Assembly (NCBI RefSeq): GCF_029978005.1
Contig: NZ_JARKOZ010000106.1
Location: 1-59,237 of the forward strand
Length of the DNA: 59,237 nucleotides
Source of the DNA: Solidesulfovibrio sp.
Lineage (GTDB): Bacteria; Desulfobacterota; Desulfovibrionia; Desulfovibrionales; Desulfovibrionaceae
Reading direction: 5' to 3'
Part shown: in pieces, positions 20,540 through 43,365 of the stretch
Layout: each line of letters opens with the position of its first letter
Numbering within the stretch: position 1 is the stretch's first letter
Made by a program: the position numbers and the translations under genes
The notes under the pieces: generated by a model
The model's database searches: none
Seen by the model: only the letters and a program-made list of their open reading frames with translations
Told to the model about the DNA's origin: nothing

Positions 20540-20548
20540 ATATATTTC

Positions 20549-20580: not shown

Positions 20581-20586
20581 TATCAT

Positions 20587-24813: not shown

Positions 24814-24852
24814 ATATTTCCTTAAATTTACTTTATTTGTCCAAGCATAATA

Positions 24853-24888
24853 GGACATGAGGCTCATTTCCCAACGCGCCTCATGTCC
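24853..24888 (+). terminator. Hairpin after the SIR2 gene
   Basis: GGACATGAGGC (24853-24863) pairs perfectly with GCCTCATGTCC (24878-24888) over a 14-base loop, 40 bases after the SIR2 stop. There is no real T run, so it may be a terminator, a processing site or an insertion scar. The ABC-3C remnant begins directly after it. Confidence 0.5.
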
Positions 24889-24895
24889 ATAATCA

Positions 24896-25330: not shown

Positions 25331-25578
25331 TTCTTCCCTCCAAGCATCTCCATCAGGACCGGGCTTTGTTGTCCGTTGGTGGTCATATCCTGACATTCCT
25401 GACGTACCCAAAAACTGTCTCTGCCTTGTGGGAGGACTTGAAACGGTTTGACGAGGGGTTGGCCGCAACACGTTCACGGAAAATCACTTTTGACTGGTTC
25501 TTGCTCGCACTTGATCTTCTTTATGCCCTCGGGGCCATCGCATTCGAAAGCGGTCTTGTGGCACGGAGGGCGACTTGA
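25327..25578 (+). CDS. ABC-three-component system middle component
   Basis: 83-aa protein starting MILPSKHLHQDRALLSVGG and ending with KITFDWFLLALDLLYALGAI. This is the pattern of the small middle-component family (MC6 type) that links the effector and ABC-ATPase partners of ABC-3C conflict systems. It overlaps both neighbours by four bases (ATGA at the start, TTGA at the end), the compact arrangement expected for such systems. Its molecular role is thought to be adaptor-like. Confidence 0.75.
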   Translation: MILPSKHLHQDRALLSVGGHILTFLTYPKTVSALWEDLKRFDEGLAATRSRKITFDWFLLALDLLYALGAIAFESGLVARRAT

Positions 25579-27299: not shown

Positions 27300-27440
27300 T
27301 TATGGTCCTCCTCGCCGGCAACTCGGCGTCTACACGCATGTCCACATCCCACCTGGCACCCTTAGCATTTCTGGAACGTGGGGAACTGAAAAATAAAAAT
27401 ATTTTGGCGTAGATAAAAACTACTTGAGCCGACTTGGCCA

Positions 27441-27484
27441 CGCTCACGCCGCTAAGCGGGGTTCAAATACCCTTGGGGACGCCA
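27441..27484 (+). repeat. tRNA-Glu 3'-half relic (possible old attachment site)
   Basis: The sequence running CTCACGCC, GGGGTTCAAATACCC and TTGGGGACGCCA follows the 3' half of a tRNA-Glu: anticodon CTC region, T arm, and the GGGGACGCCA end. The 5' half is absent, so it is not a working tRNA. It lies between the ABC-3C genes and the toxin-antitoxin pair and probably marks a second, older integration junction within the island. Confidence 0.55.
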
Positions 27485-27498
27485 AGAAACTCGTTGAA

Positions 27499-27807
27499 TC
27501 ATTTCCTCAGTTGGCGCTGTGCCGCGTTGCCCGGTTCAATGACGATCTTGAGTCTGCCGCCGGTCGCCTTGGCGTAACGCCGCAACGTCTCCAGGGAGAC
27601 ATTCTTTCCGGATTCGATGCGAGCGACACGAGGCTGACTCACCCCCATGGCCTTGGCCACGTCCGCCTGGGTCATATTCGCCTGCGTGCGCGCCTCGATC
27701 ATCGCCTCGATGAGGGCGAATTCCTCTCCCAAGGCGTCGTATTCTTTCCGAAACTCAGGGTCGGCCATCATTCGATCGCGAACCCTGCTGAAAGGAACGG
27801 TAGCCAT
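27499..27807 (-). CDS. XRE-family antitoxin (HigA-like)
   Basis: 102-aa protein with an N-terminal extension and a lambda-repressor-type helix-turn-helix: MTQADVAKAMGVSQPRVARIESGKNVSLETLRRYAKATGG (residues ~46-85, abbreviated here as one domain). It follows the toxin gene by a single base, in the toxin-first order of HigBA modules. It should bind and neutralise the toxin and repress the shared promoter. GC content is close to that of the chromosome, unlike the AT-rich operon on its other side. Confidence 0.88.
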   Translation of the reverse strand: MATVPFSRVRDRMMADPEFRKEYDALGEEFALIEAMIEARTQANMTQADVAKAMGVSQPRVARIESGKNVSLETLRRYAKATGGRLKIVIEPGNAAQRQLRK

Positions 27808-27808
27808 A

Positions 27809-28135
27809 TCACTCGACCTCGCTAAGCCGCTTCAAGGCTATTTCGATTTCCATGCGCGGAGTTTTTTGTGTTTTCTTGATGAATGAGCGAAGGATCAGGA
27901 GACGCCGCCCCGACGCGGCCACGTAGAGGCTTCGCCCGATCCCGTCTCGCCCTGTAGCTCGAAGCTCCCAAACCTTCCCTTCCACATGTCGGGCCAAGGG
28001 CATCACCAACACCGTAATCCCCTTTGCCCGCAGCAAATCCAAGGCACGGGTCAGTTTCGCCCGGATATCGATAGGGAGGGCCTCGAATTCGGCCTCTGCC
28101 AACTCATTGATGAAATGCGCGTCCCATTCGCTCAT
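27809..28135 (-). CDS. RelE/HigB-like toxin (phage Gp49-type)
   Basis: 108-aa small basic protein. The centre MPLARHVEGKVWELRATGRDGIGRSLYVAASGRRLLILRSFIKKTQKTP follows the Gp49-like HigB toxin pattern (W-LR---G-----Y------ILL--F-KK-QKTP). Such toxins are ribosome-dependent mRNA interferases. I prefer Met at 28135 (MSEWDAHF) over a start four codons upstream. It is followed directly by the antitoxin. Within the island it may stabilise the element. Confidence 0.85.
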   Translation of the reverse strand: MSEWDAHFINELAEAEFEALPIDIRAKLTRALDLLRAKGITVLVMPLARHVEGKVWELRATGRDGIGRSLYVAASGRRLLILRSFIKKTQKTPRMEIEIALKRLSEVE

Positions 28136-28146
28136 GGCACCCGTCA

Positions 28147-28164
28147 TATAATATTTATGTTATA
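28147..28164 (-). promoter_or_regulatory. Probable toxin-antitoxin promoter/operator
   Basis: TATAA (28147-28151) and TTATA (28160-28164) form an inverted repeat in an AT-rich patch immediately upstream of the toxin gene. It contains -10-like TATTAT on the minus strand. Position and symmetry fit an antitoxin operator. Confidence 0.45.
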
Positions 28165-28333
28165 ACCTGGCAAGGGGCCGCCCCCCCCAACCCGGGCGGG
28201 CGTTTACCGGCTCTCGTGCCCCAATCCCAGGATGCGACTACACGCTTTCCAGCCTGGCAGGATCGTAGCTTTCTTAAAACAGGGTACGGGACGCGTCCCA
28301 TGTGTCCCAGTCACCCACACTGCCAAGCCGAGG

Positions 28334-28555
28334 TTAAGCCAGCCAGTTTCCGGCGCACACACCAGCCCCGCTCATTTTCCGCAGACGAGGTGCCAAATAC
28401 GTCCCACGTGTCCCTTTGGGGGCCGACCAGCTCACCGTCTCGCCGCCCTCGGCCACGGACGCACTGCCCATGACCACGAACAAGTTCTCCATGGGCCGAA
28501 AAGCGGCAACGATCGCGTCCTTCAGGTCAAGAATTTGGGCATCCCCAAGGCTCAT
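28334..28555 (-). pseudogene. Possible effector-associated-domain (EAD1-like) fragment
   Basis: A 73-aa frame whose start is well supported: AGGAGGA lies six bases before the ATG. The first ~25 residues, MSLGDAQILDLKDAIVAAF, resemble the beginning of EAD1-type adaptor domains found in conflict systems, which start M-L---Q---L-DAL--AF. The rest (ETVSWSAPKGTRGTYLAP) does not continue that fold and the frame ends soon after. It is probably a 5' fragment of a lost defence gene, or an unrelated small gene. The ~180 bases on each side show no other gene. Confidence 0.35.
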
Positions 28556-28744
28556 TGGGCGATCCTCCTGGTGAAATTGGAAGATTTTCCAAGAGGATAC
28601 CCAGAGCCGAGGAAGTGGTCACGGAAAAATAAAAAATGATGAAAAAGCAATTGGATAAAATCGCGACATGCAACGCAATCATATTCCCTGGGAAATCTAC
28701 CTATTAAAGCCAAGCAACAACCAAATCTAGGCCAAATATTAGGT

Positions 28745-29767
28745 CTAAGCAATATTCTTACAATGGAATTCAGAATGAAATATTGGACACCCTCCCCTGC
28801 AAAGATCAAACAGAGCACAGGGAGTACAATCATTTAAAAACAGACGATCACGAACATTAACAAATATAGAACTTTTTTGCCAGCAATCCATTATCGACAT
28901 TTCTTTCAAATCTACACCTTCATCAAAATTTTCCATAAATGAGCAAGGATACATTCTTAAGTACTCAGAGATATAGCAAGAAAACCGTGCCGCTTCGCAT
29001 GGCTCAACAAGCTCTTTTCGTACAGTTAAAAAATTAATCATCAAATTGACAAAACAACTATCAAATCCAATCTTCACATACTTTCTAGCTCTATCAACAG
29101 CACAAAAAAATTTTTCCAAATTACCCACCGAGAAATTGCACTCGCTTAACCCAGAAGAGTATTTTTTTGGTTTGTATCGTAAAAAAATTATTGCGTTTGC
29201 CGACTTAAACGCATCTTGTTGTAAATAACCAGCAGTAATAGATTCAATATTTTTTGGCGTCACAACGATATGTATATTTGTTTTAATTTTGTACCTTTGA
29301 AATTCAAGCATTAGTTCATTGAAATTATCTTGAAAATAGTAGCTCAAACCAACAACACCGCAATATTGCTGAGTCGACAGCAATATTTCATTTGTTAAAT
29401 GCGAACCATTTGTCGTATAATTAGGGACAATCCCATGAGAGTAAGCATATTTTAAAAATTGATTAAACCTTGGATGCAAATTAGGATTTCCTCCTCCCAA
29501 AGCTACCTGAAACACCCCAATAGCGGACAGCTGATCAATCACAGCGTTGTATTCAGACTCTCCCATATTGTGCTTGTTTTTCTCTTTTTTATAACATATG
29601 CCACATGAATATTCACAATAATTTGTTATAGAAATATCAACAAGCTCTGGACCAAGACTATCCCAAAAAGGCTCCTCGGAGTCACTGTCCTCAACCCTTA
29701 CAAAACACCCATTTTTAGGATTAAAAATAGATGTAAATTTTGATCTTTCATTTCTACGTAGCAGCAT
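28745..29767 (-). CDS. Radical SAM/SPASM-domain protein
   Basis: 340-aa protein. The cluster motif is CEYSCGICYK (CX3CX2C) after VDISITNY, followed by VALGGGNPNLHPRFNQF, the GGE-like SAM-contact motif of this superfamily. The C-terminal third has a SPASM-type cysteine set: CSFMENF, then CTPCALFDLCRGGCPIF. Such enzymes usually modify ribosomal peptides or proteins or act on small molecules. It is the last gene of an AT-rich minus-strand operon, three bases after the FVSNSSST protein gene, which makes that protein a candidate substrate or partner. Base composition is unlike that of other radical SAM genes here, so it was acquired separately. Confidence 0.85.
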   Translation of the reverse strand: MLLRRNERSKFTSIFNPKNGCFVRVEDSDSEEPFWDSLGPELVDISITNYCEYSCGICYKKEKNKHNMGESEYNAVIDQLSAIGVFQVALGGGNPNLHPRFNQFLKYAYSHGIVPNYTTNGSHLTNEILLSTQQYCGVVGLSYYFQDNFNELMLEFQRYKIKTNIHIVVTPKNIESITAGYLQQDAFKSANAIIFLRYKPKKYSSGLSECNFSVGNLEKFFCAVDRARKYVKIGFDSCFVNLMINFLTVRKELVEPCEAARFSCYISEYLRMYPCSFMENFDEGVDLKEMSIMDCWQKSSIFVNVRDRLFLNDCTPCALFDLCRGGCPIFHSEFHCKNIA

Positions 29768-29770
29768 ATT

Positions 29771-30160
29771 TCACCAAAAACTATTTACAAGATTTATATA
29801 AATTTTGCCAGAATCTATTTCGAATGAAGACATGCAAAAGAATTGCTCTAAAAAATTGCCATCACTTGAAAAATGGCCGATGTATACCGCGCAACCACCT
29901 TCTTTTAATTTTCTTATTTTTTCTACTATAGACACTGGCAGCTCAAGCGCCCAATCGTTAGTATTTTTGGCAATGTATTCCTCAAAAGAAACAGAATTAT
30001 TCCTGATGCTATCGAATAAATACACCAAAAAATCTCGCACTGGCGTTACACCTTGGATACCGAGATCACGACAAAAGTCTTCCTCAGTAAGATCATCTGG
30101 CATAACTGCGATATACGTGGTCGAGGAACTATTCGAAACAAAATCAGTTTTAATTTTCAT
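29771..30160 (-). CDS. Small protein with N-terminal FVSNSSST motif
   Basis: 129-aa protein of unknown function. It begins MKIKTDFVSNSSSTTYIAVM; I recall similar N-termini with a run of serines after FV-N in other small bacterial proteins of unknown role. The remainder is acidic and contains DLTEEDFCRDLGIQGVTPVRDFLVYL. It overlaps the upstream gene by 11 bases and is followed three bases later by the radical SAM/SPASM gene. That adjacency suggests the serine-rich N-terminus may be modified by the enzyme, though there is no leader-core organisation to prove it. Confidence 0.65.
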   Translation of the reverse strand: MKIKTDFVSNSSSTTYIAVMPDDLTEEDFCRDLGIQGVTPVRDFLVYLFDSIRNNSVSFEEYIAKNTNDWALELPVSIVEKIRKLKEGGCAVYIGHFSSDGNFLEQFFCMSSFEIDSGKIYINLVNSFW

Positions 30161-30569
30161 AATTATAAATAGCTCCCGGGTCTTGTATTATCTCGCTATC
30201 GAAAAAAGCATTAACAAGGCTGCTATTTGGCAGCACCTCAGAATCAATGTAGTGCGTAATATAATTACTGTCGAGGCAGATAATTTTTTCGATAATATCA
30301 TCATCAAATAACAACTTTCTTCCTAAATAGATTTCAAAGCTATCAAATTCATCACGATAAAATTTAGCATAATCATAATTTAAATTCAAAGAATTTTCAA
30401 CAGTAGACTTGTATAATTTCAAAGCAATTTCTTCGGCAAACGAACCTTGCTTAACTTTGGCATTTTTTAAAAAATTATCTCGCGTAAGTCGATAATCAAA
30501 ACTTAGCAAATATTTTCTATAATAACTGTCGTCTTCAATCTCAAGTATCTGACTAAAAAATATATTCAT
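30150..30569 (-). CDS. Unknown 139-aa protein of the STAND operon
   Basis: Acidic, Tyr/Asp/Phe-rich protein without a motif I recognise (starts MNIFFSQILEIEDDSYYRKY). The frame is open to 30614, but I place the start at 30569, where GGGCGGG precedes the ATG; this overlaps the end of the STAND gene by 17 bases. It overlaps the next gene by 11 bases. The tight overlaps and shared AT-rich composition show it belongs to the same transfer unit. It could be a small partner of the STAND ATPase; no function is claimed. Confidence 0.65.
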   Translation of the reverse strand: MNIFFSQILEIEDDSYYRKYLLSFDYRLTRDNFLKNAKVKQGSFAEEIALKLYKSTVENSLNLNYDYAKFYRDEFDSFEIYLGRKLLFDDDIIEKIICLDSNYITHYIDSEVLPNSSLVNAFFDSEIIQDPGAIYNYEN

Positions 30570-33501
30570 ACCCGCCCTCAATTTGCCTTCTGATGTGCTC
30601 ATATTGGTATTCAAAACAAATGATATCCCTATCAGGTACAGAACCTATTGCATGAGAAACAGTGTCTAAATACTTATCAATTTGTCTTTCTAACACTGGG
30701 AAGTCAAACAATTTAGCAATAAAATAATTTTTATGCGCCTGGGATACTTTCATCGTGCGCACAAATCCAGACAAACCAAGCACATCGCTCAATAACAGTA
30801 TATTACGCTGCAATATCTCACAGACAATACCAAACAAATCTTTAAAATGATAGGGACTGACAATATACAAGATGTAGCATATCTTGACAATGTCATTATC
30901 ACAATTACCGTCAAGACGATCGACAACATGCCGAATCTTCGAAATATACATTGATGGATTTATGTATGTCTCTCGATAGTTAAATCTTTCATTTTTATCA
31001 ATGTTATCTCGCAAAATTTTGCAGAGTGTTTTTTCAGGCAAGCAAATTAGATTGTTAATAACGAAAGACAGATTAAAGTTTTTATAAATATCACAATTTG
31101 ACCTACTAAACGATCGGTAAATAAAATCAGCAGCAAAATAATTTTTTACAAAGTACTTCTGAAGAATATCCAAGTCTTTTTTTCCCAAATACTCATCTTC
31201 AATTATATAATACTCTTGCAACAGTATCCTCTTATAATAAGCTAAAGTGCACAAAAAATCAATCGACCCGACGTCTCCTTGCTTTTTTATATGATAAAAT
31301 AAATACCTAAAAATACCCTCTGTTATCGGGAGAGAAGTGTCATTAATATGCTGCAAATACTTCTTAAAATATTCAAAGTCACTTTCGCGCATTCTTGTAT
31401 ATACATAAACAGAAAGAATAAAATCTCTAAATTCATCAAAAGTGAAATTAATGACTTCAATCGGTAGACTCAACAAATCCTTAGAACTCAATTTGTTGTC
31501 TGATTTTAAAATAATATCTTCATCAAGTATTAAATGCAGAAACTCCAGTTCTTTTTCAGAAAATAATAATTCACATATTGGAATGTCATTAAAAGTCTCA
31601 TTATCAACCATATATCGAGCAATTTTTAAAACAACATCATTTGCCTGCATCCTGGCAAAACTTGCTGGGGAACAGACCAAATCCATAGCTCTAAGCTTGT
31701 TTCTATAATAGCAATTAAATATCTCCGCTTTATAAAGATGATCTATATTCGGGAAAGAAGTAATTTTGCTAGACGATCCCTTGTATGATTCACAAAAAAA
31801 CCGCAATAACAGCGGATTTTCTGTCAAAGATTCAAACACATCATCAGTATAATTTTCTACTTCTATATTAAAATGCTTCAAGTATCCATGAAAAAGTTTT
31901 AGTTTTTCTTTGTACGAATATCTGGTCACAATGTTTCTATACATAAAAATATTCTCATCCAGCACACTAAGTCTTTTTTTGTAATAATTATCGAAGCAGT
32001 CTGTCCTACATGTCAAAATGCACTTTATTTTCGTCTTGTAGGTTGATGAAATAAGCTCAAAAACCAATTTAGAAAACTCTAAAGTTTTACTGTTTTCATT
32101 TAAGCCATCAATCACAATATACGTATATTTATTGTCAGATTTAAAAAAAATTTCTGAAAACTCTTGGATTGACAAAGTTCCTTTGAGTATGCTACCATTG
32201 ATTTGATCAAGAATACTCTCATCACCATTAAAATCAACACCAGAACACAGTATACATGGGATGCCTTTTTTAAAAAAAACTGATTCTGCAAAGTCACAAA
32301 TAAAGTTTGTTTTTCCATGTCCAGCTGGCGCAAGGAGAATAAAAATATTTTTTGTAAAAAGCTTAAGCTCATCGATTTCATAATTTAAATCATCAATTAT
32401 ATACTCTGGATAAAGATCGCTACGGCGATGTTTTGCATAGTATTTTTGTTCTTCAGATAAATTGCTATTACTTTCTATCGCTTCATAATTAACCTTACCA
32501 ACCCGAGACAGCAATAGTATATTTTTGTTTATTTTGACGACATCGCTTTCACACAAATCAGAGATGCTTGTTAGCGTAAGATTTTCACTAACATTTGTAG
32601 ACAACTGATTAAACCCACTAAAACCTAATATTTCTAGATAGCTTCTCACGCTTTCAAAGCTAGCTCTAGAATTGTAATATTTTTCAAAAAACAATAAAGG
32701 ATCGGCAAACCATCGCGCCAGTTCTTTTAGATCGTTAGATTCAACATAAATGTTTTTTATATACTTATGATTTTCTATATTTTTTTTTAAAAAACCTAAA
32801 CTCTTGTTTTTGAAAGCACCTAACACTCTATCTTGATGAGCCTGTGTTTCGAGCAAAAAACTTTTTACAATCTTAAAGGAAAGATCGTCAGCGCTTGTTG
32901 GCTTAACTATGCTGCAATGGTCTTTGCCTTCGACTGTACAATATTTTCCCGAATAGATATTCGTACCTTCTTGTTGGCTAACAATTATATCTTCCGATCC
33001 AATAATGTTTAATTTTTCTACTTGACCTGTATCAAGTGCATTCCACTCCCGATTTATCATGCCAATAAATTCTGAATCTCTACACAGTTGTTTTAAATGC
33101 TGGTTAAATATTGAAATTTTTCGAACTACACCAGCCAATGAAGACCCTAGGTGCGGTGTTGCGAAGAAAACAACTTTTCGGACAATCATATTGTCCTGAA
33201 ACTTTATTCTATCTAAAATATATCTTTTACTAATTAACCCACCAAGACTATGAGCAATAATGACAATGTCCTTGTATTGATTGAGTTCATATACAATCTT
33301 TGTATCAAGAGCGTCTGCTAAAACTTGGCCTCTAGCAATATACTTTAAAGGCCACGGCCAAACACTAGTTTTGTATTTAAAAAATACACAGTCAAACTTA
33401 TCTGAAAGATCGTTGTCTTCATAAATTAGCTGACTAAACTTTCCCCATGTCTTCTGTGGACAACCTCCCAATCCGTGTACAAATAGCAACAAACTTTTCA
33501 T
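30553..33501 (-). CDS. Alpha/beta-hydrolase-STAND NTPase fusion, probable defence protein
   Basis: About 982-aa two-domain protein. Residues ~1-215 are an alpha/beta hydrolase: LLLFVHGLGG (oxyanion region), the nucleophile elbow IIAHSLGGLISK (Ser ~85), a GSEDIIV Asp region and KDHCSI for the His. After a linker comes a STAND/NACHT-like NTPase: Walker A LAPAGHGKTNF (~390), Walker B YTYIVIDGLNE (~465) and a sensor-like CILTCRTDCFD. The ~400-residue C-terminus is helical, perhaps a sensor. Met at 33501 has AGG upstream; 33516 is an alternative. Fusions of this plan act as abortive-infection sensors in other systems, which is my inference here. Confidence 0.82.
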   Translation of the reverse strand: MKSLLLFVHGLGGCPQKTWGKFSQLIYEDNDLSDKFDCVFFKYKTSVWPWPLKYIARGQVLADALDTKIVYELNQYKDIVIIAHSLGGLISKRYILDRIKFQDNMIVRKVVFFATPHLGSSLAGVVRKISIFNQHLKQLCRDSEFIGMINREWNALDTGQVEKLNIIGSEDIIVSQQEGTNIYSGKYCTVEGKDHCSIVKPTSADDLSFKIVKSFLLETQAHQDRVLGAFKNKSLGFLKKNIENHKYIKNIYVESNDLKELARWFADPLLFFEKYYNSRASFESVRSYLEILGFSGFNQLSTNVSENLTLTSISDLCESDVVKINKNILLLSRVGKVNYEAIESNSNLSEEQKYYAKHRRSDLYPEYIIDDLNYEIDELKLFTKNIFILLAPAGHGKTNFICDFAESVFFKKGIPCILCSGVDFNGDESILDQINGSILKGTLSIQEFSEIFFKSDNKYTYIVIDGLNENSKTLEFSKLVFELISSTYKTKIKCILTCRTDCFDNYYKKRLSVLDENIFMYRNIVTRYSYKEKLKLFHGYLKHFNIEVENYTDDVFESLTENPLLLRFFCESYKGSSSKITSFPNIDHLYKAEIFNCYYRNKLRAMDLVCSPASFARMQANDVVLKIARYMVDNETFNDIPICELLFSEKELEFLHLILDEDIILKSDNKLSSKDLLSLPIEVINFTFDEFRDFILSVYVYTRMRESDFEYFKKYLQHINDTSLPITEGIFRYLFYHIKKQGDVGSIDFLCTLAYYKRILLQEYYIIEDEYLGKKDLDILQKYFVKNYFAADFIYRSFSRSNCDIYKNFNLSFVINNLICLPEKTLCKILRDNIDKNERFNYRETYINPSMYISKIRHVVDRLDGNCDNDIVKICYILYIVSPYHFKDLFGIVCEILQRNILLLSDVLGLSGFVRTMKVSQAHKNYFIAKLFDFPVLERQIDKYLDTVSHAIGSVPDRDIICFEYQYEHIRRQIEGGYEYIF

Positions 33502-33907
33502 ATAAACCTGCGCCATATTTTATTTAAAAACTTCCTCTAAACAAATGCCATTAAAAACAATTAAAATTAACTTCTATCATTTTAATTAACGCCAATGCTT
33601 TCCATGCTTTCATAAAAAAATACAGGCATGGAACTTCTACGACTCTATCATCTCTTATCTTTAAGCGCTGTCGGTACGCTCAACAACATTTAGTCACTGT
33701 TGTTCTATAATGTCAATAGAAAATACGAACCTTGTTCTTTTCATAGTAGGTTTGCTTTCACGAACTGCCCAAGATAGAGGTCATCGTCGTAGCATGGGGG
33801 CAATGATAAAAAGCAATTTCTTCGCACTGATTGGTGCGGTGGAGGGATCGCCTGCCCAGCGTTAAATTCATATTACTATACACGGAAAAAAAGGTCGAGA
33901 ACCGCCC
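33502..33907. other. AT-rich upstream region of the STAND operon
   Basis: About 400 AT-rich bases hold the likely minus-strand promoter of the STAND operon (for example around 33530-33600). I see no coding region with support on either strand. The short frames at 33831 and later overlap the attachment region and look spurious. Confidence 0.5.
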
Positions 33908-33989
33908 CTGGACAACCTCCCTGGTGGCTAACCTCTGGATAACCGCCAGGGGCCGGGCCTGGGTCGTTTTAGCCGGAAAATGTTATCCA
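33908..33989 (+). promoter_or_regulatory. TGGATAAC-type repeats inside the right island end
   Basis: CTGGACAAC (33908), TGGCTAAC (33925), CTGGATAAC (33935) and an inverted GTTATCCA (33982-33989) form a cluster 50-130 bases inside the right core repeat. They match the repeat type next to attL. Bases 33925-33988 are 59/64 identical to 52831-52894. Confidence 0.6.
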
Positions 33990-34038
33990 CTCTTTAAAAA
34001 TATACAATTATTTCAAAGCATACGACTCGTCTTTGCTC

Positions 34039-34084
34039 CTTTGGGAGCAGGATGCCGGGTGTTCAAATCACCTCGCCCCGACCA
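34039..34084 (+). repeat. Right attachment repeat (attR), partial tRNA-Pro copy
   Basis: Forty-six bases identical to 20494-20539, from the anticodon loop to CCA. The D arm and acceptor 5' strand are absent, so this is not a functional tRNA. It marks the right boundary of the island. Confidence 0.93.
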
Positions 34085-34091
34085 TAATTTC

Positions 34092-34324: not shown

Positions 34325-36322
34325 ATGAATGTTTCGCTCGTATATCCTCCATTCCACTTGGAATCGCTCTACAGTCTGCCGCCTTTGGGCCTGATCAACC
34401 TGGCCACAGGGCTCGGCCTTGCCGGGCAACAACCCACGATCCACGATGCCGTTCTCGAACTTCAGGAAGGTTCGCTGTCTCTGGGCCCGGGGCTTTACCA
34501 GGCCTGCGCCGAGCGCATTCTCGACGCCAGCCCCAAGCTGGTCGGTTTTTCCGCCCAGTGCGCCACCTACCCCGCGATGATCGGCGTGGCCCGGGAACTC
34601 AAACGTCGCGATCCGGGCCTTTTTATCGTAGCCGGTGGACACAATGCGTCCTTTCTCGACACCCAGACCCTGGAGCGGTTCCCGCAGTTCGACGCCGTGG
34701 TTCGTTCCGAGGGGGAAGTCACCTTTAACGAGCTCGTGGGGGCCGTGGACGCCGGGCGGCCCGTTTGGGATATCCCCGGGGTCACCAGCCGCCGCAGCGG
34801 CACCATCGTTCGCGCACCACAGCGCGAACTCATCCCCCGGCTCGATGATCTGCCCCTGCCACAGTATTCCCTGGCCCCGCGCCTCGATCGCTACGTCCAA
34901 GCCTACGACCTGCCCCGGGCCATCGCCATCCTCGAAGTCGGACGAGGCTGCCCCCACGCCTGCGTCTATTGCTCCGAATCGGCCATGTGGCGCCGACGCC
35001 CCCGGGTCTTTTCGGTCGACCGGCTCGTCTCCGAGATGCGGCGGTTGCGGGACAACGAGGGTGCGGAGTGCTTCCTGCTCTCCTACGACCAGTTCACCAC
35101 GGACAAGGACTACGTTCGCCGCTTCTGCACGGCCGTCATCGACGCGGGCCTGTCCGGATGCGGCTGGCACTGCATTTCCCGGCTGGACACCGTGGACTCG
35201 GAGCTCTTCGCCCTCATGCGCCAGGCGGGATGCGAATCCATGTGCTACGGCATCGATTCCGGCTCGAAGCGCACCCTGTCCTTTATCAACAAACGTATCG
35301 ACGAATCCCTGCTTTACCAACGGGTGCGGGAGACCACGGAACACGGCATGACCCCCACCCTGTCCTTCATCATCGGATTCCCCGAGGAAGAGGTGCAGGA
35401 CATCGACGCCACCCTTACCTTGGCCCTCAAGTGCGGCATCCAGGGCAACGTGAGTCCCCTCGTGCAACTGCCCACGGTGCTTCCCGGCACGGCCCTGCAT
35501 GCGCGCTATGCGGACCGGCTGGCGCGCGAGGTGGACACCTATTTCGCCCTGGGCCTGGAATTTCAGGACGGACACCGTTTCGCGGGCGACGAAGTCCTCA
35601 TCGGATCCGATCCGGCCCTGTTCTCCAGCTTCTACAACCTGCCTTGCCAAGGGATGGACCTCAAGGAATTGGCCCTCCTGGCCGCCTCATTTCCCTTGAT
35701 GATCGATTTTTTTCCCAAGACATTCCATGTGCTGGCCACGGCTCTTCAAGTCTCGCCCACTCGGCTTTTCCTCCAATTCCTGAAGCGCGCTCACGCCGTC
35801 GGGGATTTTGAGGGGCCGTTGACCGCCCGGCACTATCTCCAGCACTTTCCGGATTTCGCACGGACGCTCCTCGACGCCGCGCTGGTCCGGAACTGGCCGG
35901 TGCTGCCCCAGTTGCTGCGCTACGAAGCCCTGGCCCTGGAGGCGGCGGGCGCGCCTTTGGCGCCGGGGCCTTCCGATCCGGGGAAACCCTTGCGGCGCGG
36001 GCGACTGGCCGTGGGCTGCTTCGACATGGATATGGAAAAGATCGTTGCCGACCTGAAGGCCGGCGTGGTGCGCGGGGACTATCCCGCCAGTCGGTGCGCC
36101 GTGGTCTTCAGCCACGACGGGAACCGGCTCGACGCCACCAAGGTCAATCTCTTCGGCAAGGATGTTCTGGAATTATGCGACGGAGACCACACCCTGGACC
36201 AGATCGCCGAGGAACTTCGGCCCCGCCATGGCGCGGACCTGGAACAGCCCGTCTTCGTCGCTCACTGCCGCGATGCCGTTGATGTTTTCCAGCGCACGGG
36301 GTTGCTGGCGGCCGTGGCATGA
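34325..36322 (+). CDS. B12-binding radical SAM maturase with PqqD-like C-terminus
   Basis: 665-aa protein. An N-terminal cobalamin-binding-like Rossmann region (about 1-170) has VSLVYPPFHLESLYSLPPLG, FIVAGGHNASFLDTQTL and AVVRSEGEVTFNELV. The radical SAM core (about 195-420) has EVGRGCPHACVYCSE (CX3CX2C) and later MCYGIDSGSKRTLSFINK and SFIIGFPEEE. The C-terminus (about 600-660) reads NLFGKDVLELCDGDHTLDQIAEEL, which resembles PqqD/RRE peptide-recognition domains. The frame opens at 34103, but ATG 34325 has AGGAGG upstream and starts the fold. The Cys-rich repeat peptide follows 26 bases later, so this is its likely maturase. Confidence 0.85.
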   Translation: MNVSLVYPPFHLESLYSLPPLGLINLATGLGLAGQQPTIHDAVLELQEGSLSLGPGLYQACAERILDASPKLVGFSAQCATYPAMIGVARELKRRDPGLFIVAGGHNASFLDTQTLERFPQFDAVVRSEGEVTFNELVGAVDAGRPVWDIPGVTSRRSGTIVRAPQRELIPRLDDLPLPQYSLAPRLDRYVQAYDLPRAIAILEVGRGCPHACVYCSESAMWRRRPRVFSVDRLVSEMRRLRDNEGAECFLLSYDQFTTDKDYVRRFCTAVIDAGLSGCGWHCISRLDTVDSELFALMRQAGCESMCYGIDSGSKRTLSFINKRIDESLLYQRVRETTEHGMTPTLSFIIGFPEEEVQDIDATLTLALKCGIQGNVSPLVQLPTVLPGTALHARYADRLAREVDTYFALGLEFQDGHRFAGDEVLIGSDPALFSSFYNLPCQGMDLKELALLAASFPLMIDFFPKTFHVLATALQVSPTRLFLQFLKRAHAVGDFEGPLTARHYLQHFPDFARTLLDAALVRNWPVLPQLLRYEALALEAAGAPLAPGPSDPGKPLRRGRLAVGCFDMDMEKIVADLKAGVVRGDYPASRCAVVFSHDGNRLDATKVNLFGKDVLELCDGDHTLDQIAEELRPRHGADLEQPVFVAHCRDAVDVFQRTGLLAAVA

Positions 36323-36348
36323 ACTCATAACCGCGAGGTGCACACGTC

Positions 36349-36552
36349 ATGTTGGAAATGAGCCGCATCGAGAACAAAACGTCTTTGGCCGCCAACTGCC
36401 ACGCTCCGGCCTGCCATGCGCCGGCGTGCCACGCCCCCGCCTGTCACGCCCCCGCCTGTCACGCCCCGGCCTGTCACGCTCCCAGCATGCAGGCGCAGCC
36501 CTGTCACGGCCCGGCCTGTCATGGTCCGAGCTGCCACGGTCCGTTGATGTAA
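36349..36552 (+). CDS. Candidate RiPP precursor with CHAPA/CHGP pentad repeats
   Basis: 67-aa peptide. A short leader of ~16 residues (MLEMSRIENKTSLAAN) precedes ten pentads: five CHAPA, one CHAPS, one degenerate MQAQP, then CHGPA, CHGPS and CHGPL, and a final Met. Cysteines fall at every fifth position (17, 22, 27, 32, 37, 42, 52, 57, 62). Repeat codons vary at third positions (TGC/TGT, CAC/CAT, GCT/GCG/GCC) while the residues stay constant, so selection acts on the peptide. GAGG lies upstream of the ATG. Its place between a radical SAM/PqqD-like gene and two peptidases makes it a probable modified peptide, perhaps thioether-linked or metal-binding. Confidence 0.8.
   Translation: MLEMSRIENKTSLAANCHAPACHAPACHAPACHAPACHAPACHAPSMQAQPCHGPACHGPSCHGPLM
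36397..36546 (+). repeat. Fifteen-base coding repeat array of the precursor
   Basis: Ten tandem 15-bp units encode the Cys-His-(Ala/Gly)-Pro-X pentads. Unit seven (36487-36501) is degenerate and encodes MQAQP. The first six units form one subfamily (HAP), the last three another (HGP), which suggests two rounds of duplication. Confidence 0.85.
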
Positions 36553-36559
36553 CCCGAAG

Positions 36560-36588
36560 CCGGGGGGGGGGGACCTCCCCCCCCTCGG
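36560..36588 (+). promoter_or_regulatory. G11/C8 hairpin between precursor and dipeptidase genes
   Basis: Eleven G (36562-36572), the loop ACCT, then eight C (36577-36584), flanked by further pairing bases, start eight bases after the precursor stop. A GC stem of this strength could protect the precursor mRNA or reduce read-through into the peptidase gene. It has no T tract. Confidence 0.55.
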
Positions 36589-36637
36589 CAAGCCGGCCAG
36601 TGCCAGTCGATCGCCACCCGACCGCCCAGAGGAAACC

Positions 36638-37585
36638 GTGAGCCCCTATCCCGTTGCCGACGCCCATGTGGACCTCATCACCCATCTGCTGGAGCAGACG
36701 CCTCCCTTGCCCCTGCCGGCTGTCGCCTCCGGACACCTGACCGTGGACGGTCTGCGCGCGGGCGCGGTGCGCTTCATGGTGTGCTCCTTCTATATCGCGG
36801 ACAGCTTCAATGGTCCTGGCACCGCCAGTGCGCGGCTGACGCGCCTCATGGAGGCCATGGGCGCCATGACCGCCCCGTTGCGACCGGCTTTCCGTGCATC
36901 GACCATGGAAAATATCTTCCAGGAGGAAACCGGCCCAGCCGGGTTTTGCCATCTGGTGGAGAACTGCGACGCGCTGTTGGAAACGGACCTGTTTTCCCTG
37001 ACGGAGCGGGGCGTGCGCCTGGCCGGTTTGACCCATGTGGGCGGCAACAGGCTGGCCGACGGCAATGCCGTCGTCTGTCCCGGCGGCCTTCGGGCCGAGG
37101 GCCGGGCTCTGCTCCACGACGTGGCCGCGGCGGGTTTTGCCGTTGATCTGTCGCATCTGGCCGAGCCGGGCTTCTGGGAAGTGGTGGAAGACTACCCCGG
37201 GCCGCTCCTCGTTTCGCACACCGGACTGCGGACTTTTCTGGACAGGCCCCGCAACCTCTCGGACGAACAGGCAGCCGCGGTCGTAGAACGCGGCGGTCTG
37301 ATCTGCCTCACGTTCGCCCCGGAGATCCTCGCGGCGAACAACCAGGCGTCCGTGGACACGGTAACGGACCATATCGACCATCTGGCCCAGTGCCATGGTA
37401 CGGCCCATCTGGGCCTCGGTTCGGATTTCGGCGGCTTCGACGGAACGTGCGCGGGCCTGGAAGACTGTTCCCGCTTCCAGGACCTGGCCCGGGCGCTGCT
37501 TGCCAGAGGCTATCCCGAAGCCTGCGTGGCCGGGATCATGGGGCGCAATCTGATGGATTTCCTCGGCGCGCTGTATCCGGCCTAG
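36638..37585 (+). CDS. Membrane-dipeptidase-like protein (peptidase M19)
   Basis: 315-aa metallodipeptidase of the M19 (renal dipeptidase) family. Metal-site features are VADAHVDLITH (the HxD pair), HLVENCDALLETD (bridging Glu), FAVDLSHL with LLVSHTGLR (the two His ligands) and LGLGSDFGGFDG. GTG 36638 is used, preceded by GAGGAAA. The protein lacks a signal peptide, so it is probably cytoplasmic. In this cluster it may trim the modified peptide or its products to dipeptides. It is shorter than many M19 enzymes (about 330-400 aa) but the motifs look intact. Confidence 0.87.
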   Translation: MSPYPVADAHVDLITHLLEQTPPLPLPAVASGHLTVDGLRAGAVRFMVCSFYIADSFNGPGTASARLTRLMEAMGAMTAPLRPAFRASTMENIFQEETGPAGFCHLVENCDALLETDLFSLTERGVRLAGLTHVGGNRLADGNAVVCPGGLRAEGRALLHDVAAAGFAVDLSHLAEPGFWEVVEDYPGPLLVSHTGLRTFLDRPRNLSDEQAAAVVERGGLICLTFAPEILAANNQASVDTVTDHIDHLAQCHGTAHLGLGSDFGGFDGTCAGLEDCSRFQDLARALLARGYPEACVAGIMGRNLMDFLGALYPA

Positions 37586-37635
37586 CCACGCGGCACCGCG
37601 AGGAAACGCCCCGCATCGTCAGGTCGTTGGGTGCC

Positions 37636-39348
37636 TCAGAGGCCTCCGGCCAATTGCTCGGCCTGGTCCAAGTTGGCTTCGAAACATTCCAGGGCGGTGC
37701 AGGCGAGGTCCGGGGCGTCCGGGTCAAGACCGAAGGGTTCGAGCAGCGCGGCCAGGGACCGGCTCCCGCCGGCAGCGCACAGGTCCGTAAACGCGGCTCC
37801 GAACCCGACGCCCATGGCCTCGCGCCGCTTCCAGAGCGCCCAGGCCAGGCAACCGGCCCGGGCATAGATGTGCACGTAGCCTGGAACCACAAAAAAATGT
37901 GGCGTCACGGCCCATCCGGAAGGTTCATGACCGGTTACGGCCCCCTGGTAGAGCTCTTCCTGGACCGCGAGCCACGCCGTGTCGCAATCGTCTCCGGTCA
38001 GGGTTTCCCGGAGATGGATTTCGTGCTCGAACGCATGCAGGGCCGCCTGGCGAAAGATCGTCGTGATGTCGTCTTCCAGGCGCAGGCACAGGGCAGCCAG
38101 ACGGGCCTTGTCCGATCGGGCCCTGGCTAGCCGCTCTTCGGAGAGGGCCAGTTCGCCGCACACGGCCACGGCCTCGGACAGGGCAAAGGGCGGGCGGGCG
38201 CCGGTTGGCCCCAAACCGTCGGACAGCAGGTGGTGCAGCCCGTGGCCCAGTTCATGGACCAGCACGGCCACGTCGCGCGGACGTCCCGAGGCGTTGAGCA
38301 GAATAAACGGAACCTCCCCGGGGCCCAGGCCGCGACAGAACGCCCCGGGCGCCTTTCCCGGCCTCGGAGGGGCGTCGATGCGCTCCTGCTCGAAAAAGAC
38401 CCGGGCTCGCCCGGCCAACGCGGGCGCGATGCGCCCCAGGGCGGCCAGCGCCAGGCGTTGCGCGGCCGGCCAGCTCACAGCCCGGCCCAAGCCCGGCACG
38501 GGCGGGGTCAAACAATCGTGCGCCGCCAGGACACCCAGCCCGAGAAGCCTGGCCTTCAACCTGAAATAGCGCCCCACCAGGGGAAATCCCCGGCGCAGCC
38601 CGGCGACGAGGCCGTCCACGGCCCGCGGCGTGGTTTCCTCCTCCACGGCGCGCCGAAACGACCAATGGGGATGGTTCCTGGCGGTATTCTCCAGGCGTTC
38701 AAGAAGGAGCAGTCCCCAAAGGACGCCTGCGAACAAGGCGCGATGGCGTCTCAAGCCGCGCCCAAGGGCCCTGGCCGCGCTTGCCCGGGTCGAACTGCGG
38801 GGATGGGACAGCCGTCCCAACAGCCGGCCGGCTTGCGCCATGCCGGCCAAGTCCCGCCATTGGGCCAGCCAGGCGGACCGGGCCGGCCAAAGCGCGTTCG
38901 AGAGCAGGGTTTCGCGCCCAGGGTCCAAGAGGTGCGGACCGAAACGCCGGAACTTGGCCAGGTTGTGGCCGGCCGGATGCTCTCCCAAGGCAGCCAGGAA
39001 GGACTTGGCCGTGGGCTCGTCCAGGCCGGCCCAGGCCAGCTCGAAGACCCTGGCCTGATCCTTGACCCGGCGCTCGAAGATCTCGACCCGCTGACGCAAG
39101 GCGCCGGCATCGGATCCAGGCGAGGACGCGGCACACAACAGTTCGGCATACGCGGCGATGCGATCCGTGCGCGCCAGCAGTTCCTCCCGCTCGCGCAGCA
39201 GCGCAGGGAATGACTCCGGGACGAACAGAGCCCGGCCCGTTTCCTGGGCCAGTGCGATGCAATCAGCCATTTCCCTGGCGAGAGCGGGATCCCCAGGCCC
39301 GTCAAAAACCGGGGAAAGGTTCCACGCTGGCCCATAGGAAGCTTTCAT
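37636..39348 (-). CDS. M3-family metallopeptidase (oligoendopeptidase-like)
   Basis: About 570-aa peptidase. The zinc motif is VLVHELGHGLHHLLS (HEXXH at about residue 366), with a third-ligand glutamate in FALSEAVAVCGE, 26 residues after the first zinc-binding histidine, as in M3 enzymes. A late GYVHIYARAGCLAWALW-type stretch corresponds to the family's substrate-tyrosine region. ATG 39348 is chosen; a TTG at 39384 is possible. It converges on the M19 gene with a 50-base gap. M3 peptidases cut short peptides in the cytoplasm, so it may remove the leader or degrade the modified peptide. It is more divergent than housekeeping PepF. Confidence 0.82.
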   Translation of the reverse strand: MKASYGPAWNLSPVFDGPGDPALAREMADCIALAQETGRALFVPESFPALLREREELLARTDRIAAYAELLCAASSPGSDAGALRQRVEIFERRVKDQARVFELAWAGLDEPTAKSFLAALGEHPAGHNLAKFRRFGPHLLDPGRETLLSNALWPARSAWLAQWRDLAGMAQAGRLLGRLSHPRSSTRASAARALGRGLRRHRALFAGVLWGLLLLERLENTARNHPHWSFRRAVEEETTPRAVDGLVAGLRRGFPLVGRYFRLKARLLGLGVLAAHDCLTPPVPGLGRAVSWPAAQRLALAALGRIAPALAGRARVFFEQERIDAPPRPGKAPGAFCRGLGPGEVPFILLNASGRPRDVAVLVHELGHGLHHLLSDGLGPTGARPPFALSEAVAVCGELALSEERLARARSDKARLAALCLRLEDDITTIFRQAALHAFEHEIHLRETLTGDDCDTAWLAVQEELYQGAVTGHEPSGWAVTPHFFVVPGYVHIYARAGCLAWALWKRREAMGVGFGAAFTDLCAAGGSRSLAALLEPFGLDPDAPDLACTALECFEANLDQAEQLAGGL

Positions 39349-40599: not shown

Positions 40600-41040
40600 T
40601 GCTGGTGAGCACAGTCCGACTGTCGCTTGAAGCCTCGCTGCACTCGACGGGGCGTTACGGGCGCGTCTGCAACCCCATCGGCGAAGCGGTCCGGCGCCCG
40701 GGAGGCGTCGTCTGCCGGCTTGGACACGCGGAACAGGCGCTGCCCGGCCCGCGGCAACGTGGGGACGACGTCTCCCTTCGCCGGGCGGCGGACAGGTCGC
40801 TGCCCGGCGCGCGGGGGCGCGGGAGCGCCGTGCCCGGGGGGGCGGCGAACGTCCTGGGGAGCGCCGGCGGCGGGACGCCTGTGGCTGGGCGGCGGGGTGC
40901 ATGAGGAAGTCCGGCCGGCGACGACGCCGGCCGGCAGCGCGTCAAGACCGGATGCCGGGCCAAGGGACGGGGGCGAGGGTGGGGAGAAGCTCCCGCGCGG
41001 CCGGCGGCCTGCGGGCATTCCGGTTGTCGGAGTACCAAGT
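40600..41040 (+). promoter_or_regulatory. Long GC-rich structured leader, possible riboswitch
   Basis: About 440 bases with no supported gene lie before the TonB-receptor start. The leader has many potential stems, for example GCCGGCCGG-type pairing near 40912-40940. Two similar segments contain CGCTGCCCGGC (40737 and 40797 regions), the first followed by GCGGCAACG, and a later AAGACCGGATGCCGGGCC near 40950-40968. These recall the CCCGCAACGG and final box of cobalamin riboswitches, but the match is imperfect and the length unusual. A molybdenum-cofactor-type element is another possibility given the downstream FmdE gene. I can support a structured leader, not its ligand. Confidence 0.3.
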
Positions 41041-41055
41041 TGCGAGGGAGGGAGT

Positions 41056-43365
41056 ATGCGGTTTTGTCGTGTCATCTGCGTCGCGGCCTTGTTGTCGGCG
41101 TGCGTGTGTTCGCCGCGAGCGGTCCGGGCCCAGGAGGGGGGATCGGAACAATCCCAAGAGAAACATGAGTACTACAGGATTCAAGACATCGAGGTCGTGG
41201 CGCCGAAACAGGTCGGCCCCATCGTGGAGGACAAATCGGAACCCGCCAGCGTCAGCACCTTGCCGCGCGAAACCATCGAGACGTTCGGCGGGCCGGCCCA
41301 GGCCAATCCGTATGCCGTCCTCAACAAGCTCATGCCTTCGGTCAACAGCGAATCCATGGACGCCTACGGGCTGGTCAACGAGTCCAACATCCGCATCCGC
41401 GGCCAGTCGGCCTTCACCTTCGGCAGCCTGTCCCAGACCGTAAACGGCGCGCCCATCGGCATCTCCACGGGCTACGGCGCCTCGGGCAACTCCATCGACC
41501 TGGAAAACATCGATTCCATGAGCCTGTACCGGGGGCCGATCCCGGCCGACAAGGGCTTCGGCTTCGGCGACGCCGCCGGCGTGCTGGACATGCAGGTCCT
41601 GGGCCCCGCCTACACGCGGGGGGCGACCATCGAACAGAAGATCGGCACCTACAATTTCAACCGCACCTACGGCCGGCTGGATTCCGGGGAACTGGCCACC
41701 GGGACGCGCGTCTTCGGCTCCTTTTCCCACGCCTTGGCCGACAAGTGGCGCGGCACGGGCGACGCCGAACGCCTGAACTTCATGGGCGGCCTGGCCCAAC
41801 CCCTGTTCGACAACCGCCTGAACCTCGAGGTCTACGCCCTCTACAACAAGTTCAACCAGGACGAGTACCGCCCGCTCACCTACGCCCAGACCAGGAGCCA
41901 GAGTTATTACCGCGGCTTCGACTTCACGGGCGAGATGACCGGCACCCCGTCCGTGGACTACGCCTACTACGGCTACAACCGGCAGTACTTCGACGAATGG
42001 TCCGTGTTCGGCAAGCTCGAGGCCAAGCTCTGGCAGGGAGCCACGGCTTCCTTCAGGCCGTATTACGCCGGCAACGACGGACGCCGCTACAATACGGGCG
42101 CCAACAGCGCCAAGTCGACAGGCAGCGGCTACACCTACACCGTCATGGACTACGAGCAGCGGCAGTTCGGCTATCTGGCCCAACTCGAACAGAAGCTCGA
42201 CCCGGTGACCGTCAAGCTCGGCTACTGGTACCAGAACCTGGCGATGTATCCTCCCGTGCCGGCCAGCGTGCGGACCTTCAACCTGTCGGACTACGGTTCC
42301 TACTTCAGCAGCTGGACCAACCTGGCCGAGGTCGGGGACCGCATCTTCCATTCGCCCTTTCTGCAGACCAAGACCGACCTCGGCAAGGTGCATCTGTCCG
42401 CGGGCCTGCGCTACCTGTCCGTCGATTTCCCTTCCGTCACCGCCTACAACACCACCGGCGTGCCGGACGGTTCCTACGACGATGTCCTCGACACGCTGCT
42501 CACGCCCAATGCGAGCCTGAGCGCGAAGAAGGCCACCAAGGACGTCTGGCTGCCCAATGCCGGCATCAGCTACGACCTGACCGACCAGCTCTCGGCCCGC
42601 TTCATGTACGGCCGCACCTACGCCTGTCCGCCCCAGGGGCCGTTCTACAACGGCTATTCCAAATACCTGACCAAGTTCCAGGCCGCCGGCATCACGTTCC
42701 AGAGCCTGTGGGACGACATGAAGCTGGAGACGGCGGACAATTTCGACGTCGGCCTGCGCTTCGCCAACGACACCTTCAGCCTGTCGCCGACCTTCTACTA
42801 CTCCAGGCACTACGACAAGCAGGTCACCGTCTACGACAACCTGGTCGGCGGCTCCTACAGCCAGACCAACGCCGAGGCCGAATCCATCGGCGGCGAGCTG
42901 GAGGCTTCGTGGAAGGTCAGGTCCTGGCTGACCCTCTTCGGATCCGGCTCCTACAACCGGTTCACCTTCACCAAGAACCTGAACACGGCGCTCAACACCA
43001 CCCTCAACATCAAGGGCAACCAGGTGCCGGACGTGCCGCTGTGGCAGGCGAAGTTCGGGTTGACCGCCAAATACGACAAGCTCAGCGTCACGCCGACCTA
43101 CCGTTACATGGACCTGCGGTACGGCGACGTCCAGAACAAGCAGTCCCTCGACGGCTACCATATCGTGGACCTGTCCATGGCCTACGAAATTCCCAACGCG
43201 CTCGGCAGCAAGAAGGTGACCCTGACCCTGGATCTCCAGAACATCCTGGACCAGCGCTACATCGCCGTCATCCGTTCGAGCGACGACAGCACGGCGGATT
43301 CCTCCATCTATTACTACCCGGGCGCGCCGTTCAACGCCGTGGCCGGCATCAAGCTGGAATTCTAG
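41056..43365 (+). CDS. TonB-dependent outer-membrane receptor
   Basis: 769-aa precursor. A signal peptide (about 1-25, ending RAVRAQ) is followed by a TonB-box-like IQDIEVVAPK. The plug domain (about 60-170) includes IRIRGQSAFTFGSLSQTVNG and SMSLYRGPIPADKGFG. The rest is rich in aromatic beta strands and ends with PGAPFNAVAGIKLEF, a typical barrel C-terminus with a final Phe. GGGAGGGAG precedes ATG 41056. It leads an operon with a binding protein, permease and ATPase, so it imports a large chelated ligand. The substrate could be cobalamin, a siderophore or another metallophore. Confidence 0.9.
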   Translation: MRFCRVICVAALLSACVCSPRAVRAQEGGSEQSQEKHEYYRIQDIEVVAPKQVGPIVEDKSEPASVSTLPRETIETFGGPAQANPYAVLNKLMPSVNSESMDAYGLVNESNIRIRGQSAFTFGSLSQTVNGAPIGISTGYGASGNSIDLENIDSMSLYRGPIPADKGFGFGDAAGVLDMQVLGPAYTRGATIEQKIGTYNFNRTYGRLDSGELATGTRVFGSFSHALADKWRGTGDAERLNFMGGLAQPLFDNRLNLEVYALYNKFNQDEYRPLTYAQTRSQSYYRGFDFTGEMTGTPSVDYAYYGYNRQYFDEWSVFGKLEAKLWQGATASFRPYYAGNDGRRYNTGANSAKSTGSGYTYTVMDYEQRQFGYLAQLEQKLDPVTVKLGYWYQNLAMYPPVPASVRTFNLSDYGSYFSSWTNLAEVGDRIFHSPFLQTKTDLGKVHLSAGLRYLSVDFPSVTAYNTTGVPDGSYDDVLDTLLTPNASLSAKKATKDVWLPNAGISYDLTDQLSARFMYGRTYACPPQGPFYNGYSKYLTKFQAAGITFQSLWDDMKLETADNFDVGLRFANDTFSLSPTFYYSRHYDKQVTVYDNLVGGSYSQTNAEAESIGGELEASWKVRSWLTLFGSGSYNRFTFTKNLNTALNTTLNIKGNQVPDVPLWQAKFGLTAKYDKLSVTPTYRYMDLRYGDVQNKQSLDGYHIVDLSMAYEIPNALGSKKVTLTLDLQNILDQRYIAVIRSSDDSTADSSIYYYPGAPFNAVAGIKLEF

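Follow-up and report, generated by a model that had tools for sequence, protein, structure and literature searches.

We analyzed a 59,237-nt stretch of DNA from Solidesulfovibrio sp. (contig NZ_JARKOZ010000106.1; 'the window' below means this whole stretch), in which the gene of a B12-binding/radical S-adenosylmethionine (SAM) maturase is followed by a gene of a short Cys-His repeat peptide and by genes of M19 and M3 peptidases. On balance, we favor the interpretation that this cluster serves anaerobes to build, on a peptide and without O2, an antioxidant metabolite of the ovothiol type, a 5-thiohistidine or, in relatives whose peptide contains selenocysteine (Sec), a 5-selenohistidine. The four genes lie where a preliminary description of this DNA had placed them.

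A conserved maturase–peptide pair with a selenocysteine version

The maturase (665 aa; 34325..36322, plus strand) has B12-binding (2.6e-12) and Radical_SAM (3.6e-20) domains of Pfam; Radical_SAM was found in all 15 members of the maturase set that were scanned, and the cysteines of the cluster-binding CxxxCxxC motif (C209, C213, C216) are invariant across 46 aligned maturase rows. Its C-terminal half, similar to TglI and ApyI, ends in a PqqD-like RiPP recognition element (RRE; RiPP, ribosomally synthesized and post-translationally modified peptide). The PqqD match at residues 605-653 is weak (E 7.9e-4; 20.2 bits, below the Pfam cut-off of 23.4). The C-terminus is predicted to fold like TglI, an RRE-bearing recognition protein, as seen in the Foldseek list re-examined with VIA-align (a second look at that list, no independent search); the likeness is one of fold only, as no sequence in PDB matched the C-terminus at E up to 1. 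Thus, in the predicted structure the maturase has the RRE/PqqD fold typical for radical SAM RiPP maturases, as the preliminary description had supposed.

The peptide gene (67 codons; 36349..36552, plus strand) starts 26 bases 3′ of the maturase stop and encodes a leader, MLEMSRIENKTSLAAN, followed by nine CH[AG]P units. Comparison of its CH[AGS]P units with each other gave 76 differences at third, 18 at second and 0 at first codon positions; the 223 units of other loci, when pooled, gave 1454, 133 and 56 differences at third, second and first positions, respectively. This bias towards the third position indicates that the protein sequence is what selection keeps.

Among 199 genomes of the window's family we found only three further full-length maturase orthologues (50-56% identity), the other matches being partial B12/radical SAM proteins; in all three a CHxP-repeat peptide is encoded directly 3′ of the maturase. 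In a sample of 395 genomes of the phylum, 13 (the window's own included) had a maturase orthologue at E up to 1e-90. A scan of named-species genomes yielded 69 loci; 49 were retained (L047-L095; 42-56% identity, except for the Planctomycetes loci L094 and L095 at 29-30%) and 20 (L096-L115) were discarded as partial matches. With L033 and the window added, the retained loci make the set of 51 loci used below.

A short precursor peptide is encoded 3′ of the maturase in 46 of the 51 loci (46 of 49 without the two distant Planctomycetes): in 33 loci with Cys units only, in 12 with a Sec unit only, and in L081 with both, encoded separately within 75-700 bases after the maturase: one peptide of the Cys type, whose CHAPG units are spaced, and one of the Sec type, ending in UHAPTESPVRR. 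Leaders resemble MLxIxxVEKKxSxAA, and the units are CHAP, CHGP or CHSP; in each of these 46 loci a conserved leader precedes a variable core in a gene beside the maturase, and in every substrate unit Cys or Sec stands immediately before His. The claims of a RiPP-like pair and of homologous peptides adjoining homologous maturases in other genomes are therefore borne out; the repeat proposed earlier holds as a Cys-His repeat, not as strict CHAPA. No peptide was identified in L054, L060 (where the contig stops 117 bp on), L077, L094 and L095. In L077 the maturase frame continues straight into PPESPVRR and a SECIS-like (selenocysteine insertion sequence) hairpin near position 4421 of the locus, as if a deletion had removed a UHAP peptide except for its tail and fused this tail to the maturase.

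The Sec version of the peptide (UHAP) was missed in the preliminary description. In 13 loci the apparent stop of the peptide is an in-frame TGA, after which the frame goes on through HAP[ST][EQ]SPVRR to TAA or TAG in every case. Pairwise differences in codons 1-5 past the TGA number 216 at third, 62 at first and 0 at second positions, whereas the ten codons after the true stop show 486, 515 and 416, respectively. Codons further on in the tail are near-frozen (TCT, CGG and AGA in 13 of 13 loci) and make up a SECIS-like hairpin. In 10 of the 13 folds this hairpin, situated 21 nt downstream of the UGA, has a 7-bp stem and the 3-nt loop GU[ACU]; the stem of L083 is 6 bp long and closes a loop of 5 nt, while L069 and L075 have altered pairing. 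The minimum free energy (MFE) ranges from -8.8 to -17.2. The bacterial SECIS model, in the part of PMC13188914 that states it, takes a stem of 4-16 bp located 16-37 nt after the UGA, an apical loop of 3-9 nt carrying G within the first two positions, and MFE at or below -7.5; the UHAP hairpins agree with it, and the UHAP peptides show conserved coding past an in-frame TGA. In three UHAP loci an Rfam scan found nothing with E of 1 or less. SelB is above its curated cut-off in 12 of the 13 Sec-locus genomes (that of L080 has fragments only) versus 2 of 14 control genomes.

The Sec loci group together in a phylogeny of 50 maturases, as a Syntrophobacteraceae-like clade with support 99/96 (14 rows including the degenerate L077); thus, Sec replaced Cys once. 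Ahead of the Sec unit, the peptides of L068 and L069 retain a Cys unit (CHVPT-UHAP, CHVPN-UHAP), which in most other Sec loci has decayed, e.g. to TYVVPT-UHAP. The replacement of Cys by Sec points to the chalcogen as the atom that does the work, and it indicates that a single unit suffices.

Two UHAP peptides that were scanned had no NCBIfam match, and the UHAP selenopeptide is absent from the 119-entry selenoprotein inventory in Table 1 of PMC13188914; it would make a selenopeptide family outside that table. The same table lists UHxP as the Sec motif of formate dehydrogenase, and the (C/U)H[AGS]P unit of all Cys-type peptides matches it letter for letter; we count this likeness as coincidence or shared local geometry, not homology.

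OvoM-type methyltransferase and the occurrence of OvoA

In 23 of the 51 loci the pair is linked to a gene of a methyltransferase, a Trm112 zinc ribbon joined to a methyltransferase domain. Its best solved relatives are OvsM (7.5e-26), OvoM (5.6e-20) and OvoA (1.8e-19), all thio/selenohistidine N-methyltransferases, and it aligns with the same conserved blocks as these three; a second member ranks the same three first. Neighbors were counted within 3.5 kb in the 40 loci whose downstream sequence extends over 2.5 kb or more (27 Cys-type, 10 Sec-type and 3 without a peptide); by this count, the methyltransferase is near 19 of the 27 Cys-type loci and near none of the Sec-type or peptide-less ones.

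Unlinked copies were found as well. The window's genome has a Trm112-type methyltransferase on another contig (E 1.2e-103; 34% identity to that of L090; 84.9 bits against the cut-off of 170 for ovoA_Cterm, TIGR04345). A further 27 maturase genomes that lack a linked copy were searched: the Trm112 type is encoded unlinked in 15 (in that of L069 it is truncated at a contig end), a stand-alone OvoM-like enzyme in 7, and neither of them in 5 (those of L054, L056, L061, L094 and L095). Altogether 46 of 51 maturase genomes have an OvoM-type methyltransferase: 23 linked, 22 unlinked of the 27, and the window's own. In the phylum sample the methyltransferase (E up to 1e-100) is present in 13 of 13 maturase genomes compared with 45 of 395 overall (P = 9.7e-14, phylogeny ignored). 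As to other identities, an NmbA-type bacillithiol methyltransferase was set aside by its description, which, in the part available, names neither a Trm112 domain nor OvoA.

OvoA, the enzyme held to make ovothiol-type thiols, is an O2-dependent sulfoxide synthase that forms the Cys-His C-S bond from free Cys and His. We found no match to the OvoA sulfoxide synthase in the window's genome, and only 1 of 33 maturase genomes searched had one above the cut-off. The pattern is clearest in the Geobacter-type family (48 genomes, the family of the genome carrying L059, G599): 35 genomes encode the OvoM-type domain, 26 the OvoA sulfoxide synthase and 7 the maturase; OvoA and the maturase occur together in 0, and 13 genomes have none of the three. 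The frame carrying the OvoM domain is 703-862 aa long in the 26 OvoA genomes and 259-405 aa in the 7 maturase genomes; in all of the latter the OvoM-type enzyme stands alone and OvoA is absent. We scanned five of these seven OvoM-type enzymes, and each exceeded the ovoA_Cterm cut-off (307-327 bits against 170); one has E 5.5e-81 to OvoA. That all seven maturase genomes fall among the nine with 'OvoM without OvoA' has P = 4.9e-7, phylogeny ignored.

Where a thiohistidine N-methyltransferase is kept in a genome without OvoA, its thiohistidine substrate must come from elsewhere. The replacement pattern would thus answer, in a testable way, how anaerobes with the OvoM-type methyltransferase and without OvoA obtain its substrate. 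We propose tentatively, and as slightly less probable than the general interpretation given at the outset, that the cluster is a ribosome-templated, O2-independent route to ovothiol-type 5-thiohistidines in strict anaerobes, in which it replaces OvoA, and that its Sec version leads to 5-selenohistidines.

Proposed pathway and competing explanations

The ribosome would make a carrier peptide, whose short leader would be bound by the RRE of the maturase. Repeats of Cys-His-(Ala/Gly/Ser)-Pro would let one peptide present many substrates and so raise the yield. The B12/radical SAM enzyme would then join each Cys sulfur to the imidazole carbon (C5) of the next His, and the OvoM/OvsM-type methyltransferase, linked in many relatives and unlinked in the window's genome, would methylate an imidazole nitrogen. 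The M3 oligopeptidase and the M19 dipeptidase may dismantle the peptide, and a pyridoxal phosphate (PLP) enzyme, SufS/EgtE-like and linked in some loci, may take off the cysteine remnant. In the Sec clade the single U-H-A-P unit would yield the selenium analogue, with the position of Se set by the genetic code; the need for a separate SECIS per Sec would explain why there is just one such unit. With Cys/Sec-His in every unit and peptidases reaching down to dipeptides, a bond from Cys sulfur to His C5 followed by release of thiohistidine is the simplest reading. The thioether-linked peptide suggested in the preliminary description agrees with this in part: a Cys-His thioether fits as a stage on the way to a small molecule, not as a final peptide.

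Single elements of the scheme have precedents: radical SAM/RRE peptides, Sec-containing precursors and carrier-peptide pathways to small molecules are each known. C-S bond formation is counted among B12-radical SAM reactions in the part of PMC10635010 consulted, and 3-thiaglutamate is released by a peptide-scaffold route using the recognition protein TglI, as described in part of PMC9016710. Among the titles and abstracts listed in searches of the open-licence literature, we found no description of the combination, of the UHAP selenopeptide or of a role replacing OvoA. If the scheme is right, it would give the first small selenium antioxidant cut out of a Sec-encoded peptide, would add C-S(e) coupling between neighboring Cys/Sec and His to radical SAM chemistry and would show how a small molecule can be made on a carrier peptide with many copies of the substrate unit.

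With the ovothiol pathway (OvoA/OvoB/OvoM, also OvoC) the cluster would share the N-methyltransferase type (46 of 51 maturase genomes), the predicted use of Cys and His and a predicted C-S lyase; here, however, Cys and His belong to a ribosomally made peptide, a radical SAM/B12 enzyme would stand in for the O2-dependent iron enzyme, and OvoA is found in 0 of 7 Geobacter-type maturase genomes. The best solved relative of the linked methyltransferase, OvsM (PDB 9bxh), belongs to the ovoselenol pathway, and selenium would enter here too in the UHAP clade, but from genetically encoded selenocysteine. The 3-thiaglutamate system (TglA/TglHI) likewise uses a peptide scaffold and a recognition protein of the TglI type (a match by fold); in contrast, TglH is an iron/O2 enzyme where we see a fused B12/radical SAM enzyme, and its substrate residue is added C-terminally, while here the substrate residues are internal and repeated.

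By NCBIfam the window maturase is best matched by ApyD over residues 14-441 (1.1e-78) and by ApyI over 463-644 (1.9e-5), both below curated cut-offs; with 265.2 bits against 750 it does not belong to ApyD (NF050148). The aminopyruvatide system (ApyD/ApyI) thus has a B12-radical SAM enzyme with an RRE in common with the window, but its precursor is another one, and no P450 or MNIO partner is among the recurrent neighbors here. The peptides also resemble CefA (NF038108), a RiPP peptide with Cys at every fifth residue, in the Cys period of five and in similarity below the cut-off; four Cys-type peptides scored 13.7, 18.1, 10.2 and 12.5 bits against the curated 30, so they are not assigned to this family. 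The sole genome of the phylum above the CefA cut-off (G550) shows neither a radical SAM gene nor a CHAP peptide in the 3.1 kb examined.

Several observations weigh against the thiohistidine route. Whereas the conserved pair, the predicted recognition fold, the conservation of the Sec codon, the co-occurrence with the methyltransferase and the replacement of OvoA are observations, the bond formed, the order of the steps and the released product are what we infer. The characterized B12-radical SAM relatives mainly C-methylate, and the nearest, ApyD, β-methylates Tyr. The seven Geobacter-type maturases are a single clade, so that events are fewer than genomes and the P-value of the family comparison overstates its weight; moreover, a stand-alone OvoM unaccompanied by OvoA or the maturase is encoded in 2 of the 48 genomes. 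Outside that family replacement of OvoA is not universal, since the genome of L087 (G607) has the cluster along with a full OvoA, and five UHAP genomes (L075, L079, L082, L086, L092) encode a full-length OvoA-N-like protein below the cut-off. (These OvoA-N-like proteins score 126-137 bits against 400; they are perhaps another sulfoxide synthase.) We found no such methyltransferase in three maturase genomes other than Planctomycetes (L054, L056, L061), and the 10 UHAP loci with sufficient flank have no linked copy, only unlinked ones. Five members of the Trm112-bearing type score 66.1-105.8 bits, below the ovoA_Cterm cut-off, and the type occurs in 32 of the 395 phylum genomes without a maturase; thus, in this sample the methyltransferase is necessary company of the maturase but a non-exclusive one. 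Seven such orphan loci (L122, L123, L125-L129) when read had no CHAP/UHAP peptide; L122 and L123 begin at a contig end, followed by an M19 gene, so there the maturase may be absent from the assembly only. Finally, the PLP enzymes resemble cysteine desulfurases more than EgtE and are near 9 of 40 loci only.

The main rival explanation is that the maturase C-methylates the peptide, e.g. at β carbons of Cys, His or Pro, with the cluster yielding a methylated RiPP and the peptidases just cutting the leader or trimming. ApyD, the nearest characterized relative by profile, is a peptide β-methylase, and the folds closest to the predicted maturase structure are those of the methylases TokK, CysS, TsrM and MgmA; yet the ApyD similarity is far under the equivalog cut-off (265 against 750 bits), and C-methylation would leave unexplained the OvoM-type enzyme, the mutual exclusion of OvoA and maturase among the Geobacter-type genomes, Sec in place of Cys and the dipeptidase. 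We regard it as unlikely, though worth keeping in mind. Formation of a thio(seleno)oxazole or another ring from Cys/Sec only is a still less probable outcome. Such ring formation is reportedly carried out by SbtM on the selenobacteriocin peptide of Geobacter lovleyi, so a radical SAM enzyme acting on a Cys/Sec peptide would have a precedent, with a Sec-containing precursor (SbtA) as in the UHAP loci, and exchange of Sec and Cys would fit. It would require, however, neither the invariant His nor the OvoM-type enzyme; besides, the selenobacteriocin motif in Table 1 of PMC13188914 is SGUG rather than UHAP, and, as noted, the two UHAP peptides scanned lack an NCBIfam match.

A metal-binding or buffering peptide, bufferin- or methanobactin-like, whose Cys-His array, perhaps modified, chelates metal, is in our judgment also improbable. 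The peptide is indeed dense in Cys and His, and in the window a gene of a TonB-dependent receptor lies 1.5 kb past the M3 gene; but this receptor is no recurrent neighbor in the 51 loci, dipeptidase and oligopeptidase would degrade such a product, and a whole clade keeps one U-H-A-P with the prior Cys-His mostly lost, which multidentate binding would hardly tolerate. The metal-chelating end product envisaged in the preliminary description is disfavored on the same grounds. One could also think of the peptide as a mimic of the formate dehydrogenase active site, a decoy or an aid in cofactor maturation with (C/U)-H-x-P serving no biosynthesis. Beyond the letters shared with the UHxP motif (PMC13188914, Table 1) this very improbable idea would account for neither the maturase nor the RRE, methyltransferase and peptidases, and a formate dehydrogenase gene was not among the recurrent neighbors, though no search was aimed at it.

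Peptidases, other neighbors and features of the window

The M19 dipeptidase gene of the window (315 aa, GTG start; 36638..37585, plus strand; Pfam Peptidase_M19 7e-58) has counterparts near the pair in 26 of the 40 loci: 15 of 27 Cys-type, 10 of 10 Sec-type and 1 of 3 peptide-less; the M19 gene of L066 is upstream and divergent. The M3 oligoendopeptidase gene (37636..39348, minus strand), convergent with the others, encodes HExxH within VHELGH and matches NCBIfam M3_fam_3 with 2e-82, a score nevertheless below the curated cut-off. Convergent M3 genes are near 4 of the 40 loci (L033, L053, L066 and the window; tabulated as 4 of 27 Cys-type, 0 Sec-type and 0 peptide-less); L049 has one beside the pair as well, but with a flank of 2.06 kb it is outside the 40. 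The two peptidases of the preliminary description thus do recur in other genomes; the description of the system as these four genes, on the other hand, was too narrow, as it left out the methyltransferase (linked in 23 of 51 loci) and the PLP enzyme.

Genes of the PLP enzyme are near 6 of 27 Cys-type, 2 of 10 Sec-type and 1 of 3 peptide-less loci; the enzymes best match SufS-type cysteine desulfurases and EgtE less well. Upstream of a few loci there are genes of a GlnQ-like amino-acid ABC transporter (ATPase in 7, permease in 5).

Between the peptide and dipeptidase genes, folding of positions 36553-36640 revealed a 13-bp G/C hairpin (36559..36589, plus strand), a possible attenuator or mRNA stabilizer. 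The fold has -41.2 kcal/mol with a z-score of only -0.88 versus shuffles, so the strength of the hairpin is ordinary for such base composition. A scan of the cluster for sigma-70 promoters found none (0.5 expected).

The TonB-dependent receptor with a plug domain is encoded at 40876-43365 (plus strand) and was not among the neighbor clusters found in at least 4 of the 51 loci. On the other side of the cluster, a tRNA-Pro(TGG) gene is situated at 20463-20539, and a 40-bp part of its 3′ portion occurs as an exact direct repeat at 20494 and 34039. The repeats bound a 13.5-kb integrated element (20463-34085 of the window), which ends just 5′ of the maturase gene and encodes, among others, a 987-aa protein (30553-33516) that, by reading of its sequence alone, resembles a lipase/NTPase fusion.

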